Shown: piece by piece, positions 52,782 through 59,215 of the stretch
Numbering within the stretch: position 1 is the first letter of the stretch
How the letters are laid out: each line of letters begins with the position of its first letter
Assembly: GCF_039649665.1 (NCBI RefSeq)
Contig: NZ_JBDJAW010000031.1
Location: forward strand, 1 to 64,000
Direction: 5' to 3'
Source: Microbispora sp. ZYX-F-249
GTDB taxonomy: Bacteria; Actinomycetota; Actinomycetes; Streptosporangiales; Streptosporangiaceae
Length of the DNA stretch: 64,000 bases
Notes under the pieces: model-generated
What the model saw: the letters and a program-made list of their open reading frames with translations, nothing else
Database searches by the model: none
What the model was told of the DNA's origin: nothing
Position numbers and translations under genes: made by a program

Positions 52782-54803
52782 TCACCCCTCCTTCTCGTGC
52801 CGCTCCAGCGCCGCGCGTACGACGGGGTCGCCGGGGGCCAGGGTCAGCGCCCGGCGCAGGTCGGCCAGTGCCTCCCTGCCCCGGCCGAGCGCGTCGAGGG
52901 CGGTGGCCCGGTTGAAATACAGGGCCGCGTCCTCGCCCAGCTCGATCGCCCGGGTCAGGTCGTCGACCGCGCCCGCCGCGTCGCCGGTCTCGAACCGCAG
53001 GGTCGCGCGGTTCGCCCAGGCCGAGGCCAGGCGGGCGTCGGCGGCCAGCGCCGCGTCGAAGGCCAGGGCGGCCTCCGCGTAGCGACCCGCGTCGGTCTCC
53101 AGCTGCCCCAGCACACCGTGCAGGTGCGCGTTGCCGGGGTCGAGCGCGAGCCCCGCCTCGACGTCGCGCCTGGCGGCCTCGTGTTCGCCGAGCATCTCCA
53201 GCACGCCGGCCCGGTTGACGTAGGCGTCGAGGTAGCCCGGGTCGAGTTCGAGCACGTGGTCGAGGTCGGCCCGGGCGCCGTCCAGATCCCCGGCGGCCAG
53301 GCGCAGCTCGGCCCGGTTGTAGTACGCCTCGGGCAGCGGCGGGCTCACCCGGATCGCGGTCTCGTAGTCGGCCAGCGCCTCGCCGGTACGTCCCATCTCG
53401 AACAGCAGGTTGCCCCGGTCGAGATAGTGGTCGGGGAAGCCCGGATCGATCTCGACGGCCCGGTCGAAGTCGGCCAGCGCCTCCCGCGTGCGGCCCAGGC
53501 GGGCCAGAAGCTGCGCCCGGTTGGCGTACAGCACCATCCGGTGCACGGGGTGGGCGCCCGGCGGCAGGTCGCGCTCGGCCAGGTCGATGGCCGACTGCAC
53601 CAGGCCGAGCGCCTCGTCCGCCCGTCCCTCCCGCAGCTCGATCAGCGCGCGGGCGTTCTGGTCGAACCCGAGCTTGAAGGCCCGTGTCCGCCGGTCGGGC
53701 AGCAGCGTGGAGATCGCTATCGCCTCGTTGATCCAGGCTCTGGCCCTGGACAGGTCCCGCCGTGCCGGATCGCGGTCGCGCGCGTCGAGCATCGCCGTGC
53801 CGTACGCGGCGGCCGCGTGCACGGCGGGGTCGACGCTGACCCGCCGGGCCTGGTCGTACAGCTCCTGCGCGTGCGCCCGCCGGCCCAGCCCCGCCAGGGC
53901 GGTCGCGGTGCGCTGGGTGAATCGCCACCACAGGTCCGAACCCGGCTCCACCAGTCTCAGGCCACGGGAGCCCAGCTCCACGACCGCGTGCAGGAGCCCC
54001 TCGGTGACGCAGTGGTCCACCGCCGCCCACAGCGCCCGCGCCGCGGCGTCCGGGTCGCCGCCGTGCTCCAGGTGGTACGGCACCGCCCCCAGGGCGTGTT
54101 CCGCCGCAGCGGCACCGGCCCTCAGCTCGGCGGCGCGCCGGTCGTGCCGGCGCGCGCGTTCCTCCGGCGGCAGCGACAGGTACGCCCGGTAGGCCCGGGG
54201 GTCGTCGGAGGTGCCGTCCGAGGCGACGTAGTCGTCGGGTGGCCCGCCCTGGGCCCGCGCCTCCACCGGCCGCATGCCCTCCCATGGCGGCTCGACCGAG
54301 CCCACCGCCAGCGTCAGGCCCGGCACACGGCGCGCCAGGACGCGCAGCAGTTCGCGGTCGGCCGGATCCGCCTCGTGCAGGTTGTCCACCAGCAGCGTCC
54401 GCGGTCCCTCCAGGCAGCCGCGCACGAACTCGGCGACGCCGTTGGCGATCCGCAGCGTGCGGCGCGGCGCGGGCACGAGGATGCGCTCGTCCTCGGTCAG
54501 GCGGTCCTCGATGGGCTGCCGGCGCGCCGGCACCAGAGGGCGCAGGCCGGGTGCGACGGCGCGGATCTCGATGTCGTGTGCCGCCACCAGGCCCGGGGAA
54601 CGCTCCAAGGCGACCGGGACGAGGGCGCGCAGCAGCGCGCCGCCGATCGTGTACGGACCGCGTAGCCGGCGGTGCCCGTTGACGACGGGCGCCACTGGGG
54701 GCGGCACCTCCAGTGCGTGGTTCCCAACCAGCGATCGGAGGGCCGCTACGCGGTCGCGGGAGAGGTCTCCCCGGACCCAGATGTGGCTCGGGAGGTCCCT
54801 CAC
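52782..54803 (-). CDS. TPR protein with an AAA_16-like N-terminal domain lacking a P-loop
   Basis: 673 residues from GTG 54803, which overlaps the stop of the upstream micropeptide gene (GTGA). The N-terminal part (about 1-210) resembles AAA_16/LAL-type ATPase domains: TLLVDNLHEADPADRELLRVLAR matches the Walker B region (normally DDLHWADP). The Walker A position reads RGPYTIGGALLRALVP, without GKS/T, so ATP hydrolysis is doubtful. About residues 280-660 form a long tetratricopeptide array (LARLGRTREALADFDRAVEIDPG, GRTGEALADYETAI, GRGREALADLRRAL). It should bind a partner protein or peptide. Coupling to the micropeptide is the main clue to its role. Confidence 0.82.
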   Translation of the reverse strand: MRDLPSHIWVRGDLSRDRVAALRSLVGNHALEVPPPVAPVVNGHRRLRGPYTIGGALLRALVPVALERSPGLVAAHDIEIRAVAPGLRPLVPARRQPIEDRLTEDERILVPAPRRTLRIANGVAEFVRGCLEGPRTLLVDNLHEADPADRELLRVLARRVPGLTLAVGSVEPPWEGMRPVEARAQGGPPDDYVASDGTSDDPRAYRAYLSLPPEERARRHDRRAAELRAGAAAAEHALGAVPYHLEHGGDPDAAARALWAAVDHCVTEGLLHAVVELGSRGLRLVEPGSDLWWRFTQRTATALAGLGRRAHAQELYDQARRVSVDPAVHAAAAYGTAMLDARDRDPARRDLSRARAWINEAIAISTLLPDRRTRAFKLGFDQNARALIELREGRADEALGLVQSAIDLAERDLPPGAHPVHRMVLYANRAQLLARLGRTREALADFDRAVEIDPGFPDHYLDRGNLLFEMGRTGEALADYETAIRVSPPLPEAYYNRAELRLAAGDLDGARADLDHVLELDPGYLDAYVNRAGVLEMLGEHEAARRDVEAGLALDPGNAHLHGVLGQLETDAGRYAEAALAFDAALAADARLASAWANRATLRFETGDAAGAVDDLTRAIELGEDAALYFNRATALDALGRGREALADLRRALTLAPGDPVVRAALERHEKEG

Positions 54804-54877
54804 CCCTTGTGGATCACACTCGAGGTGCCGCTCAGCTTGGTCGTCCCCGGCTTACGGATAATGATCTTCTTCATCAT
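54800..54877 (-). CDS. 25-residue cationic micropeptide, translationally coupled to the TPR gene
   Basis: The frame starts MMKKIIIRKPGTTKLS and ends SSVIHKG, with seven Lys/Arg/His and no acidic residue or Cys. Its TGA stop overlaps the GTG of the TPR/AAA_16-like gene, a strong sign of real translation. GGGGAAAGAGG precedes the two ATG codons (54877 or 54874). It has no signal peptide and no recognised RiPP leader motif. It could be a bound regulator of the TPR protein, a signal, or a modified product. I recall similar short basic peptides before this TPR family in other actinomycetes, but cannot confirm that here. Confidence 0.65.
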   Translation of the reverse strand: MMKKIIIRKPGTTKLSGTSSVIHKG

Positions 54878-54909
54878 GCCTCTTTCCCCACTCTTGCGGA
54901 CAAGGCACA

Positions 54910-54938
54910 AGTATTCGCAGGGATCAGCTATCCGCCAA
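54910..54938 (-). promoter_or_regulatory. Possible promoter for the micropeptide-TPR pair
   Basis: On the minus strand, TTGGCG (54933-54938), a 17-nt spacer, and AATACT (54910-54915): four of six consensus bases in each box, about 33 nt before the micropeptide start and within the 77-nt gap after the GNAT gene. It would let the pair be expressed apart from the regulator and GNAT genes. Confidence 0.35.
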
Positions 54939-54954
54939 GGGATGGAAGCATTAT

Positions 54955-55521
54955 CTATCGGGAGAAAAGCGGGGAGACCACGCCATTTAGCTGCTTCTCG
55001 ATATAAATCACCACGTTGTCGCCGCATACCTCGCGCCGTAACTCCCGCCAGCCGGATTTGCGGTAGAGCTCCAGCGCGGCGACCTGGCGCAGAGTGGTGT
55101 CACCGCGCAACGTCGAGTATCCGAGCCGGCGCGCCCGCTCCTCGAGCTCCTGCGTGATCCGCGCGCCGTAACCGCGCCGCTGGTGATCGGGGTGGACGCG
55201 CAGCCGGCACATCTCGGCCGTGTCGGCGTCGATGCGCCGCAGGCCGCCCATCGCGACGAGCCCCGCCCCGGGCACCTCTCCGACGAGGAAGTCACCCCCG
55301 GCCGTCAGGTAGATCTCGGTGATCCGGGGGAAGTCGTCGTCATAGTAGACGCCGTCCCCCGGCACCACACCCACCTGTGCCAGGCCGATCTGATGGAGGG
55401 ACCACACCGCGTCGAGGTCCGACCAGCGGTACCGCCGGATCCTCAGCGGTGCGATCCCGCTCTCCTCGCCTCTCACGGGATCTCCCGGCTCGAAATCTCC
55501 CGCCAGCGCGTCTCCTGCCAC
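54955..55521 (-). CDS. GNAT-family N-acetyltransferase
   Basis: 188 residues from GTG 55521, with AAGGAGG 4 nt upstream. The acetyl-CoA motif is LRVHPDHQRRGYGARITQELEERARRLGY (about 115-143), followed by LRQVAALELYRKSGWRELRRE. The first 25 residues (acidic, Gly/Asp/Glu rich) are an extension. It starts 21 nt after the HTH/TPR regulator gene and ends 77 nt before the micropeptide, so it could acetylate a partner in this cluster, such as the Lys-rich peptide. That link is only positional. Confidence 0.85.
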   Translation of the reverse strand: MAGDALAGDFEPGDPVRGEESGIAPLRIRRYRWSDLDAVWSLHQIGLAQVGVVPGDGVYYDDDFPRITEIYLTAGGDFLVGEVPGAGLVAMGGLRRIDADTAEMCRLRVHPDHQRRGYGARITQELEERARRLGYSTLRGDTTLRQVAALELYRKSGWRELRREVCGDNVVIYIEKQLNGVVSPLFSR

Positions 55522-55542
55522 ACGTCCTCCTTGCTCCCCACG

Positions 55543-57132
55543 TCACCCGATGTCCCGGACCAGCTCCGGCGGGATCGTGACGCGGCTCTGCTTGATCACC
55601 TCGCAGAACTCCTGCAGCCGGGCGGAGTCGCCGTGCTTGGCCCTGATCGCCTTCACCAGGTCGTACGCCGGTTTGAGCAGCAGGTCGGTCCGGTAGTCCT
55701 TGTCGACCAGGTCGATGGCCTCCTGGCCCAGCTTGAGCGCTGCCTCGACGTCGCCGTCGATGAGCCGGCACATCGCCCGGTCGAACCGGATCAGGGTCTG
55801 GTCGAGCAGGTCCTCGTCCGTGTACTTGTCGAGCGCCTGCTGCAGGATCACGTCGGCCTCCACGGTCTGCCCCAGCTTCACCAGGACGTCGCCCTGGTAG
55901 AAGTAGAGCTGCCGCTCGGTGTAGCCGAAGGCCGGATCCTCCCGGTCGCTGTCGCTCATCTGCTGGAAGGCCGCCCGGGCGCGGTGCAGCGCCCGCTTGG
56001 CCTGTTCGACCACCTCGTGCCGCGAGCCGTTGACGCCGGCGATCTTCGCCAGCGCCCTCGCTTCGACGACCGGCGCCATGGTCCGGGCGGCGCACGGGGT
56101 GTGGCCGGCCAGGTCGCGGCTCTTCTTCGCCAGCGTGAGCGCCTCGCGCGGGTCGCCGTAGTAGAGCGGCACCAGCGCCTCGCGGGCGGTGACCCAGGCG
56201 CGCAGGGCACGGTCTCCGGTCTCGTCCGCCGCCATCCGGCCGGTGCGGAAGAACGAGCGGGCCAGCCGCTGGTCCCCCAGGTCGATCATGATCATCCCGG
56301 AGAGCCCGGCGAGCTGTGCGGCCATCCGGCACAGCCGCTCCTGCACGTCGATGGGCTGGCGGCGGTCCATGGCCTTGCGCACGGCGGTGAACTCGAGCAT
56401 CACGTCGCAGAGCAGACGTACGGGCGGGGTGTTCATGTACTGCCGCCCGAAGCCGGACGTGGCCTGCTCCCACTGGTCGAGCATCGCCGGCGAGACGGTG
56501 GCCGCGACCATGGTCTCGTCCATACGCCGACGGAGGTTCTCCACCGCGCCGAGCACCTGCTCGTCGAGCTCCTGGAGGCCGGCCGCCCCCACGGCGCCGC
56601 CGGCGAGGAGCCTCAATAGCGTCCTCCGTAGCACGTTCTCGTCCTCCTCGCCCCCGTTCACCGTGGGGGTTTCGCCGCCCGACGGGGCCGGCGCACCCCA
56701 CGGAGCGGGTGAAGTGTTAGGTCTGTCCTCTTCTGGGGCTCCACTACTCGATTCGGCGAGGTGTCCGTGGCCGCAGATGCACGGGCTCTCGAACCCGAGA
56801 GCCAGCGGTTCCACCCGATAGACCGAGCACAGGTAGTGGAGATACTCCGGGCCGGGCCGCTTCATCCCCGACTCGTACGCGGACAGTAGCGTCTCTCCGA
56901 TGCCGGGGACGGCTTTTCCGTCTCTCTCGAAGAGAGCGCGCACCTGCTCGATCACGTCGGCGAGCGCCACACCGTGCGAGAGGCGATGTGCCTTGATCCG
57001 GGTCGTGCCGAACTGTGGCCCGCAGTCGTTGTGGATCTCCTCGGCGATCTGGGCCAGGCTGCGCCCGGCGGCCAGGCCCCGCGCCCGGATCCGGCGCGCG
57101 ATCTCCGTCTCCCTGTGTTGCCTGCCGGACAT
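55543..57132 (-). CDS. NsdA-like HTH/TPR transcriptional regulator
   Basis: 529 residues from ATG 57132, with GAGAGGGG upstream. N-terminal DNA-binding region (about 1-110): SLAQIAEEIHNDCG, TTRIKAHRLSHGVALADVIEQVR and LLSAYESGMKRPGPEYLHYLCSVY, then a Cys/His pair ESPCICGHGH. A proline-rich linker (about 125-155) and a short hydrophobic stretch (LRLLAGGAVGAAGL) precede a helical TPR-type domain (about 200-529). This is the architecture of Streptomyces NsdA-type regulators of development and antibiotics. TPR regulators in other phyla (Rgg/PlcR class) sense small peptides. The frame to 57342 is open but unconserved. Confidence 0.85.
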   Translation of the reverse strand: MSGRQHRETEIARRIRARGLAAGRSLAQIAEEIHNDCGPQFGTTRIKAHRLSHGVALADVIEQVRALFERDGKAVPGIGETLLSAYESGMKRPGPEYLHYLCSVYRVEPLALGFESPCICGHGHLAESSSGAPEEDRPNTSPAPWGAPAPSGGETPTVNGGEEDENVLRRTLLRLLAGGAVGAAGLQELDEQVLGAVENLRRRMDETMVAATVSPAMLDQWEQATSGFGRQYMNTPPVRLLCDVMLEFTAVRKAMDRRQPIDVQERLCRMAAQLAGLSGMIMIDLGDQRLARSFFRTGRMAADETGDRALRAWVTAREALVPLYYGDPREALTLAKKSRDLAGHTPCAARTMAPVVEARALAKIAGVNGSRHEVVEQAKRALHRARAAFQQMSDSDREDPAFGYTERQLYFYQGDVLVKLGQTVEADVILQQALDKYTDEDLLDQTLIRFDRAMCRLIDGDVEAALKLGQEAIDLVDKDYRTDLLLKPAYDLVKAIRAKHGDSARLQEFCEVIKQSRVTIPPELVRDIG

Positions 57133-57467
57133 TCCGGCCCCTCTCTCGTGGCCGGCCGCGCTAGCAGCCCGTGGTCTCGAGCGGTCCTCACCTTGTGACG
57201 GAGAGTGACGCTGCCGTCGCGCTCCGCCCACAACATAATGATGGACCATAGTTGGCGCGGCCAAGCCCCCAACCTGAACGTGCCGACTAAGGATCGTCTC
57301 CCGATAGGGGTTTTCTTTCAACCAACATGGGTTTTCCTTCACCTCAGCCGCGTGCGGCCCTCGTTGACCCGAGCACTTCTGTGAGCCATCTTTGGCGCAC
57401 CAGAGTGAACAGACGGGAACGCAAAGTACACATTCCGCCCGCGAACGGAAATGAAGGAGGACCCACG
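57133..57467. promoter_or_regulatory. Divergent control region with two CCATNNTTGGCGC repeats
   Basis: 335-nt gap between the NsdA-like regulator and the small plus-strand gene. CCATAGTTGGCGC (57246-57258) and CCATCTTTGGCGC (57386-57398) are 11 of 13 identical direct repeats, 140 nt apart. A 9-bp palindrome ATGGACCAT (57241-57249) overlaps the first. The gap is AT-richer than its surroundings. These are likely operator sites, perhaps for the adjacent HTH/TPR protein. Confidence 0.45.
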
Positions 57468-57728
57468 GTGGGGGAGGACGATTTCCGGCGCCTGGAACAT
57501 CTGGTGGCCGAACTCGACGCCCGGGGCCTGCTCGCGCGAGTCGTGCGCACCCCGTCGGGCCGCGCCTACGTGCGCGTGATCAACCCCGACGCGACGAGCC
57601 TCACGGAGAACGTCGTCTGCCAGGCGGCCGACTACTGGTGGTCCTGGGGTGAGCGGATGCACCGGGCGGACGACCCCGCCGGAGCGGCCACGAAGGTGGC
57701 CCGTGTGCTCGCCGCGGTGAGCGAGTAG
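57468..57728 (+). CDS. Small hypothetical protein (86 residues) divergent from the NsdA-like regulator
   Basis: GTG start at 57468 with AAGGAGG 7 nt upstream; a longer frame from ATG 57327 would run through the control region and lacks coding bias. Sequence begins GEDDFRRLEHLVAELDARG and contains TPSGRAYVRVINPDA and VVCQAADYWWSWGERM. Small alpha/beta protein with no membrane segment. Family not recognised. Its divergent promoter suggests it may be a target of the regulator. Confidence 0.7.
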   Translation: MGEDDFRRLEHLVAELDARGLLARVVRTPSGRAYVRVINPDATSLTENVVCQAADYWWSWGERMHRADDPAGAATKVARVLAAVSE

Positions 57729-58204: not shown

Positions 58205-59215
58205 GTGTTGCCGCTGTCACCCGCGACGCCAGATCCTGAGCCGACCGTTCTGGACCCCACGGAGATGGGGCAGCAGGTGATGAAGGCGTGTGATAACAAC
58301 GACGGCATCTTCTGCACCGTCTTGAACAGCGCCTTTCCGAAGAAGGACTTCCCGGCCTGGATACAGCTCGTCGCGGGCATCGTGGACGTCCTGCTGCTGA
58401 TCGTCCTGATCCTGGCCGGAGCGATGATCATCCGGAAGGTCGTCCACCGGCTGATCACCCGGCTCACCGTGCGGGCCAGCGTCGGCGTGCTGCCGGAGCG
58501 GCTGCGCGGCAAGGCCGTGCTGACCAGCACGGAGGCCGCAGCGGCGATCATGACCGAGCGCCGCCGGGCACGCGCCGAGACGATGGGCTCGGTGCTGCGG
58601 AGTCTCGCGTCCGTCGTGATCCTGGGCACCGCGGCTCTGATGATCTTCGCGAAGCTCGGGGTCGAACTGGCGCCGCTGCTCACGAGTGTCGGAATCATCG
58701 GTGTGGCGGTCGGCTTCGGCGCCCAGGAGCTGGTCAAGGACTTCATCGCGGGCATGTTCATGCTGCTGGAGGACCAGTACGGCGTGGGCGACGTGATCGA
58801 CACCGGTGTGGCCGTCGGCACGGTGGAGGCCGTCACGCTCCGCATCACCCGCCTGCGCGACGCGGACGGCAAGGTCTGGTACGTGCGCAACGGCACGATC
58901 ACCCGCATCGGCAACGAGTCGCAGGGCTGGTCGAGGGCCCTGGTGGACGTCCCGGTCCCGTACGACAGCGACGTGGCGACGGTCCGCGACCTGCTCACGA
59001 ACATCGCCCACGACATGTGGGAGGACCCGGAGTACCGGGACACGGTCATCGTCGAGGAGCCGCAGGTCTTCGGCCTCGAGTCGGTGTCGGGCTCGTCCGT
59101 CATCTTCCGCGTCACCGCGAAGACCGTGCCCGCGCGGCACCTGGAGGTCGCCCGTGAGCTGCGCCTGCGGGTGAAGCGCGCCTTCGACGACAAGAGCCTC
59201 ACCTTCGCCGCCTGA
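58205..59215 (+). CDS. Small-conductance mechanosensitive channel (MscS family)
   Basis: 336 residues from GTG 58205. Three membrane helices: LVAGIVDVLLLIVLILAGAMII (about 52-75), SLASVVILGTAALMIFAKLG (about 137-158) and the pore helix VGIIGVAVGFGAQELVKDFIAGMFMLLEDQYGVGDVID with the Gly/Ala packing typical of MscS. The beta domain follows (VEAVTLRITRLRDADGKVWYVRNGTI), then a cytoplasmic alpha/beta domain to the end. Releases osmolytes on hypo-osmotic shock. Confidence 0.93.
   Translation: MLPLSPATPDPEPTVLDPTEMGQQVMKACDNNDGIFCTVLNSAFPKKDFPAWIQLVAGIVDVLLLIVLILAGAMIIRKVVHRLITRLTVRASVGVLPERLRGKAVLTSTEAAAAIMTERRRARAETMGSVLRSLASVVILGTAALMIFAKLGVELAPLLTSVGIIGVAVGFGAQELVKDFIAGMFMLLEDQYGVGDVIDTGVAVGTVEAVTLRITRLRDADGKVWYVRNGTITRIGNESQGWSRALVDVPVPYDSDVATVRDLLTNIAHDMWEDPEYRDTVIVEEPQVFGLESVSGSSVIFRVTAKTVPARHLEVARELRLRVKRAFDDKSLTFAA

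Follow-up and report, generated by a model that had tools for sequence, protein, structure and literature searches.

A conserved micropeptide tightly coupled to a TPR protein gene in Microbispora, and its apparent kinship to protease-associated precursor peptides of Actinomycetota

Introduction

What purpose might be served by a gene of 24 codons whose stop codon overlaps the start codon of a large tetratricopeptide repeat (TPR) protein gene? This question is raised by a locus of Microbispora sp. ZYX-F-249 (GCF_039649665.1, contig NZ_JBDJAW010000031.1, positions 1-64,000 of the forward strand; this whole stretch of 64,000 nucleotides is referred to as the window), whose closest relatives are found in Microbispora species. 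A sequence-only reading of the window had grouped four minus-strand genes, encoding an HTH/TPR regulator, a GNAT acetyltransferase, a basic peptide and an AAA_16-like/TPR protein, into one candidate system. Our analysis points instead to a module of two genes, the peptide gene and the TPR gene, and we lean, tentatively, towards the view that the peptide acts in the cytoplasm as a dedicated ligand, held by the TPR superhelix of its partner, and sets the state of the partner's STAND-like domain. The two genes are as follows.

54800-54874, minus strand: micropeptide gene including its stop codon, supported by translation, by 79 of 80 loci and by codon constraint; an in-frame ATG one codon earlier, at 54877, is not conserved
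52782-54803, minus strand: gene for the TPR partner of 673 residues, with a GTG start that overlaps the peptide stop

Results and discussion

The micropeptide and its conservation

Read from its second ATG the micropeptide has 24 residues, MKKIIIRKPGTTKLSGTSSVIHKG, with an extra leading methionine if the first ATG is used. The sequence-only reading had described a basic peptide of 25 residues; the basic peptide stands, and the length is corrected to 24, since the codon preceding the second ATG (54874) varies among relatives and this ATG was taken as the conserved start. The claim that the peptide lacks cysteine and an evident export signal is borne out by reading its sequence, and neither a hydrophobic segment nor a secretion signal is evident by the same means, a signal-peptide program not having been used. 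A peptide of the same family lies upstream of the TPR gene in 25 of 30 TPR-homologue loci taken from whole genomes, the window included. From 187 confirmed TPR-homologue loci we kept 80 named ones, and in 79 of them an open reading frame (ORF) of 24 codons plus a stop lies no more than 293 nt upstream of the TPR match. Scored with a profile built from 12 seeds out of the earlier 30-locus set, these 79 peptides reach 48.7-83.9, and no runner-up ORF at any of the 80 loci exceeds 11.2. This test is not fully independent, because the seed genomes overlap in species with the scored loci.

Codon constraint provides evidence for the peptide that is independent of the profile seeds. The peptides fall into two classes, namely type I, to which the window belongs and which ends in IHKG in 55 of 55 loci, and type II (24 loci), in which the C-terminus reads KHVG in 14. 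In the 47 distinct type I sequences the ratio of nonsynonymous to synonymous differences (pN/pS) is 0.26, and in 24 type II sequences it is 0.37, with purifying selection acting on the N-terminus too. The sequence-only reading had staked itself on a conserved micropeptide upstream of TPR homologues and on coding constraint, and both are present; the same two lines of evidence rule out a spurious ORF and confirm that the micropeptide is real. No NCBIfam or Pfam model was found to match the peptides, and an RNA element was also considered and rejected, as no Rfam match was obtained at E<=0.1.

Pairing of the peptide with the TPR gene

The peptide TGA (54802-54800) and the GTG of the TPR gene (54803-54801) share nucleotides as GTGA. 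This coupling, to which the sequence-only reading had given weight, is kept in 53 of the 55 type I loci, and in 53 of 55 the overlapping GTG opens an unbroken TPR frame. The 24 type II junctions comprise one GTGA, three TTGA and 20 in which the first TPR start lies 25-168 nt after the peptide stop. Among 150 genomes of the family, the TPR gene is present in 76. A peptide match at E<1e-6 was obtained in 72 genomes, every one of which has the TPR gene, and in the four other TPR-bearing genomes (G023, G459, G477, G485) a weaker peptide match (E 6.5e-4 to 0.018) lies directly upstream of that gene. The two genome listings were made with the same settings and compared by eye, and because the genomes are related their co-occurrence does not amount to a series of independent tests. 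At E<=0.1 the peptide profile matches in 104 genomes, from which we counted the 72 below 1e-6 and the four adjacent weak matches; the 28 genomes without the TPR gene have weak matches only (best 2.1e-4, in G470), which were taken as chance.

Adjacency is less constant than co-occurrence. The sole strong peptide match of two genomes, G030 and G441, sits on a different contig from the TPR gene, and at six peptide loci (L231, L234, L239, L240, L241, L244) the TPR N-domain was not detected in the 13-14 kb stretch, each of these genomes carrying the TPR gene elsewhere. At three of the six loci the peptide has 25 or 27 residues, so the fixed length of 24 residues holds only beside the TPR gene. Two of the six loci, L239 and L234, have retained the NsdA, GNAT and peptide genes and lost the TPR gene, with purU next in line, and their last Gly codon is GGA, so that the GTG start is lost as well. 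The reverse case was seen at L104, where a TPR homologue stands behind ftsY and the peptide was not detected. Tight coupling of the peptide and the TPR gene is thus established, the nearly unchanged peptide accompanying the large repeat protein in many soil actinomycetes, and a partnership between the two products is the best reading of it.

The same observations bear on a reading in which the peptide as such has no further role: ribosomes that translate the 24 codons, and perhaps stall there, would control how the TPR gene is translated. The invariant length beside the TPR gene, the conserved C-terminus of type I and the GTGA overlap would all suit such a leader upstream ORF (uORF). The type II junctions are mostly without overlap, however, the peptide-only loci and the separate contigs of G030 and G441 break the linkage in cis, the N-terminus is constrained too, and the Rfam search was empty at the threshold given above, which leaves this reading improbable.

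The TPR partner

The partner consists of a P-loop-less AAA+/STAND-like domain (residues ~1-200) followed by a TPR superhelix (~250-673). The label AAA_16-like survives in part: the Walker-B half matches Pfam AAA_16, but below the cut-off (22.5 vs 32.6 bits, E 1.7e-4). AAA_16 aligns only over its second half and no Walker A P-loop is found in the N-domain, the position of which holds G-P-Y-T, invariant in 15 aligned proteins. In the fold model of the protein, the TPR superhelix resembles peptide-binding TPR proteins among others. TPR superhelices dominated the whole-protein fold search and the N-domain was hence modelled separately; Foldseek returned no match at E 0.001 or better for this model alone. 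A sequence search of the PDB with the TPR profile yielded generic TPR proteins only, and no DNA-binding domain was found in the TPR protein by Pfam and domain comparisons. Some relatives at NCBI are annotated with a start ~32 residues further on (641 residues), others at full length (667-671).

One relative matches PF17874 (TPR_MalT), and we take this match, together with 8bob, to reflect a likeness to MalT-type STAND regulators. MalT is a STAND regulator with a TPR-like sensor, and the window's partner resembles it in having a STAND/AAA+-like N-domain followed by a TPR superhelix. It differs in carrying RGPYT in place of a P-loop, in the absence of a detectable LuxR-type DNA-binding domain and in the peptide gene upstream.

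Tight pairing by itself is silent on function, and purposes of another sort can be imagined: the peptide might be a small structural subunit, or the two products might form a toxin/antitoxin-like pair or act as chaperone and client. We give these little weight. The persistence of peptide-only loci makes a toxin unlikely unless its antidote lies elsewhere, and antiphage defence, tried as a candidate, was set aside after PADLOC returned only a weak match of the TPR region to a PrimPol model.

Type III relatives with precursor-like peptides and a protease

At more distant TPR homologues a membrane protein of ~400 residues with an HExxH motif is encoded upstream, and before it a peptide that opens like those of types I and II, with MKKIxVRKxGxVRLT, and ends in a variable tail; these peptides we refer to as type III. 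From 40 loci of such M50-type proteases, seven of which duplicate loci of the earlier sets, 25 have a TPR match (that of L250 only in the repeat region), and the peptide is found at all 25, weakly in L250 and with an N-terminal extension in L254 and L274. Proteases of the other 15 are 26-33% identical, with no TPR match in the stretch examined. Five clusters (L230, L259-L262) have two peptides each. We aligned 33 distinct type III peptides, leaving out the 15 loci without a TPR match, L250 with its weak peptide and duplicates from a single locus, and trimming by hand the N-terminal extensions of L254, L263 and L274. In this set positions 2-4, 7, 8 and 12-15 are nearly fixed, Tyr22 is present in 26 and the tails after it measure 4-18 residues. 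All 79 peptides of types I and II have His22 and stop two residues beyond it. The window's peptide thus corresponds to the conserved type III segment without its tail. Of the leader/core layout of RiPP precursors, type III shows the conserved segment and the tail; types I and II, with only two residues past position 22, do not show it.

Pairwise comparison at 50-70% identity of the TPR N-domain underlines this difference. Identity over residues 2-16 is 73-75% within type I, 70-71% within type II and 77-83% within type III; from residue 17 onward the values are 78-84%, 55-65% and 29-52%, respectively, in an ungapped comparison in which length differences count (43 pairs for type III). Most type III pairs are of unequal peptide length, and no type I or II pair of the compared set is. 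The C-terminus is thus best conserved in type I, with type II in between.

The type III protease may be read as a domain resembling the RiPP recognition element (RRE; RiPP, ribosomally synthesized and post-translationally modified peptide) fused to a site-2 protease. Pfam M50 is weak on these proteins (E 0.066 in one of four), as is PqqD PF05402 on the N-domain, which it matches in one of three sequences at E 0.098. A comparison of the N-domain also lists the RRE protein TfuB1, at E 1 and ranked behind unrelated designed and Mur ligase chains. In two distant homologues, PF05402 scores above its cut-off at the corresponding place (E 8.3e-7 and 4.1e-5). Cassettes of precursor, RRE-like/M50 protease and TPR protein occur at L143, L144, L150, L151, L230, L249, L254-L263, L277-L283 and others in several actinobacterial families, and are widespread in Actinomycetota; we found no description of such a cassette in the open-access literature. 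Their tails are variable and rich in Cys, Tyr, Gly and Trp. A divergent gene, read as a regulator of the SARP/BTAD type, precedes the Streptosporangiaceae cassettes at L143, L150 and L151. At L265-L276 and neighbouring loci, where the M50 protease is more distant (26-33%) and TPR was not matched, other short upstream ORFs, such as MKKLVVRKLEPVRTSSAAEPCEN or the KxxVVRKLExLETT types, are perhaps further precursor families.

The daptide report (PMC10036551) describes MpaP as an RRE fused to a site-2 protease, and gives for daptides the leader motif ELExMEAP, an invariant C-terminal Thr and genes for a dehydrogenase, an aminotransferase and a methyltransferase. Type III is similar in its membrane protease with an RRE-like N-domain and in its short precursors, of which a cluster often has more than one; it differs in the leader MKKIxVRKxGxVRLT and the TPR/STAND protein, and the window's module differs further in having no such adjoining protease.

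The shared segment also gives substance to a reading in which the peptide remains a RiPP-like substrate, presented or modified by the TPR protein or by an enzyme in trans, its fixed end yielding one conserved product. PQQ, mycofactocin and the scaffold-type pearlins are parallels for a single conserved product made from a precursor. A segment held in common with the precursor-like peptides of the RRE-like/M50 protease clusters would be expected under this reading, as would the IHKG end fixed in every type I locus. A further argument comes from the pearlins, whose scaffold peptides are reported together with the M50 proteases TglG and TmoG (PMC10885120); the likeness lies in a ribosomal peptide whose conserved part is the scaffold rather than the product, and the difference in that neither an amino-acid-adding ligase nor a protease is seen beside the window's module. 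Against this reading, types I and II show no constant modifying enzyme or protease among nine neighbor proteins surveyed, their peptides end two residues past the conserved segment, and a close copy of the RRE-like/M50 protease is missing from the genome of the window, which has only one at 30% identity. We consider this reading unlikely, though the strongest of the rivals. That 30% protease (G000:C4:201948-202961; L179, L188) is itself of note, since near it lie a putative ThiF-like gene and an ORF of 41 residues containing KTKITIRLLDKIETTTSSNSVGN, and the whole looks like a separate precursor cluster.

A pheromone pair, in which the peptide is exported, possibly trimmed, re-imported and sensed by the TPR protein, must also be weighed at this point. 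Peptide/TPR pairs of the RRNPP type are known from Bacillota (Rgg/SHP, Rap/Phr), and the parts list of Rgg/SHP/Eep signaling resembles type III with its M50 protease and variable tails. Likeness to RRNPP pairs lies in the small peptide gene that adjoins a TPR protein gene. The window's pair differs in the lack of an evident export signal, in that neither an HTH nor a Rap-type (phosphatase-type) N-domain was found, and in belonging to Actinomycetota, with a near-invariant peptide and an AAA_16/STAND-like N-domain. The type I peptide, moreover, has no evident hydrophobic segment, types I and II have no adjoining protease, the type I sequence is too uniform for pherotypes and no DNA-binding domain was found in the TPR protein, all of which makes a pheromone a poor prospect. 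The window's pair does not show every feature tested for RiPP precursors, RRNPP pairs or leader uORFs.

Descent of the pair

In a tree of 79 TPR N-domain sequences, retained from 103 rows by dropping those at least 88% alike to a kept one, each type lies on one side of a branch with support of 100/99 or better, and type I is sister to type II (100/100). Midpoint rooting places types I and II inside type III, next to a clade with mostly AAACSIYK or AAACSQYK peptides (89/84). All 79 genes encode Ser19 by AGC or AGT, while their other serines are TCN in 49 of 81 cases. As AGY is one step from the Cys codon TGY, and the His22 codon one step from Tyr, these codons fit descent from a CxxY peptide, as a hint and no more. 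Ala19 occurs in some type II relatives that are not among the 79 (L029).

This kinship to a precursor family with an RRE-like/M50 protease, as judged from the alignments, goes beyond what the sequence-only reading had proposed. We infer that the ancestor may have been a precursor-peptide cassette of peptide, RRE-like/M50 membrane protease and TPR protein, spread across Actinomycetota, and that the window's lineage would have lost the adjacent protease gene and the variable tail, leaving a recognition segment of ~22 residues plus two. The peptide would then stay in the cell, unmodified and gripped by the TPR superhelix of its partner, and its occupancy would switch or stabilize the partner, as in a pair of peptide ligand and STAND receptor. 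A bolder form of this proposal holds that a RiPP-like leader has outlived its core, without tail, protease gene or chemistry, and now serves as a near-invariant intracellular ligand governing a P-loop-less STAND/TPR switch, a new kind of peptide-receptor pair; this we regard as possible yet doubtful. There is a real chance that a peptide with a TPR/STAND partner of RiPP-like descent is a kind of its own. If the proposal is true, a precursor peptide has turned regulatory ligand, and living relatives would represent several stages, namely the precursor with protease and variable tail, the tail-less pair, and the pair split within a genome. We found no description of the peptide-TPR module in the open-access literature, subscription papers and preprints lying outside this coverage.

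Promoter-like element and neighboring genes

The other features of the locus are the following.

54910-54938, minus strand: promoter-like element TTGGCG-N17-AATACT, conserved, behind the GNAT stop and before the peptide
54955-55521, minus strand: GNAT acetyltransferase gene (PF00583, E 1.9e-13)
55543-57132, minus strand: gene for an NsdA-family TPR-like regulator (NF053720, E 7.8e-44)
57327-57728, plus strand: gene for a hypothetical protein of 133 residues, no Pfam match
58205-59215, plus strand: MscS-like gene, constant in position beside the type I locus

The hexamer AATA[AC]T lies 25-75 nt before the peptide at 60 loci out of 79, type I and type II alike, and in 7 of 1580 random windows, a ratio that flatters the element because the hexamer was defined on the loci in which it was counted and the controls were random, mostly coding stretches of the same loci. 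A generic scan did not list the TTGGCG-N17-AATACT site. The element is kept at the peptide-only locus L239 and was not found in the other five such loci. The peptide-TPR pair probably has its own promoter. All four minus-strand genes of the sequence-only reading are present, but with this element between GNAT and the peptide they are probably not one unit. The supposed HTH/TPR regulator is indeed TPR-like and of the NsdA family, but no Pfam HTH model matches it at E 0.001.

Synteny was surveyed for nine chosen neighbor proteins. In the 55 type I loci the GNAT gene ends no more than 700 nt upstream of the peptide in 51 and NsdA is present in 43; the MscS-like gene (52), the 133-residue hypothetical gene (53) and purU (51) are equally constant. 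None of these five occurs in the 24 type II loci. GNAT is also present in four genomes in which a type I locus was not seen (G015, G018, G029 and G030), the match in G015 and G030 containing a stop. A place in the system for the GNAT and the NsdA-type regulator is therefore not supported, and nothing but adjacency speaks for the idea that the GNAT modifies the peptide. Both genes are probably syntenic neighbors within a wider conserved block, outside the module. A four-gene operon was set aside on the promoter-like element, the type II loci and the genomes with GNAT and no type I locus. Upstream of the type II peptides, as read from the sequences, lies an agmatine-deiminase-like gene in 10 of 24 loci and ftsY in 6 of 24.

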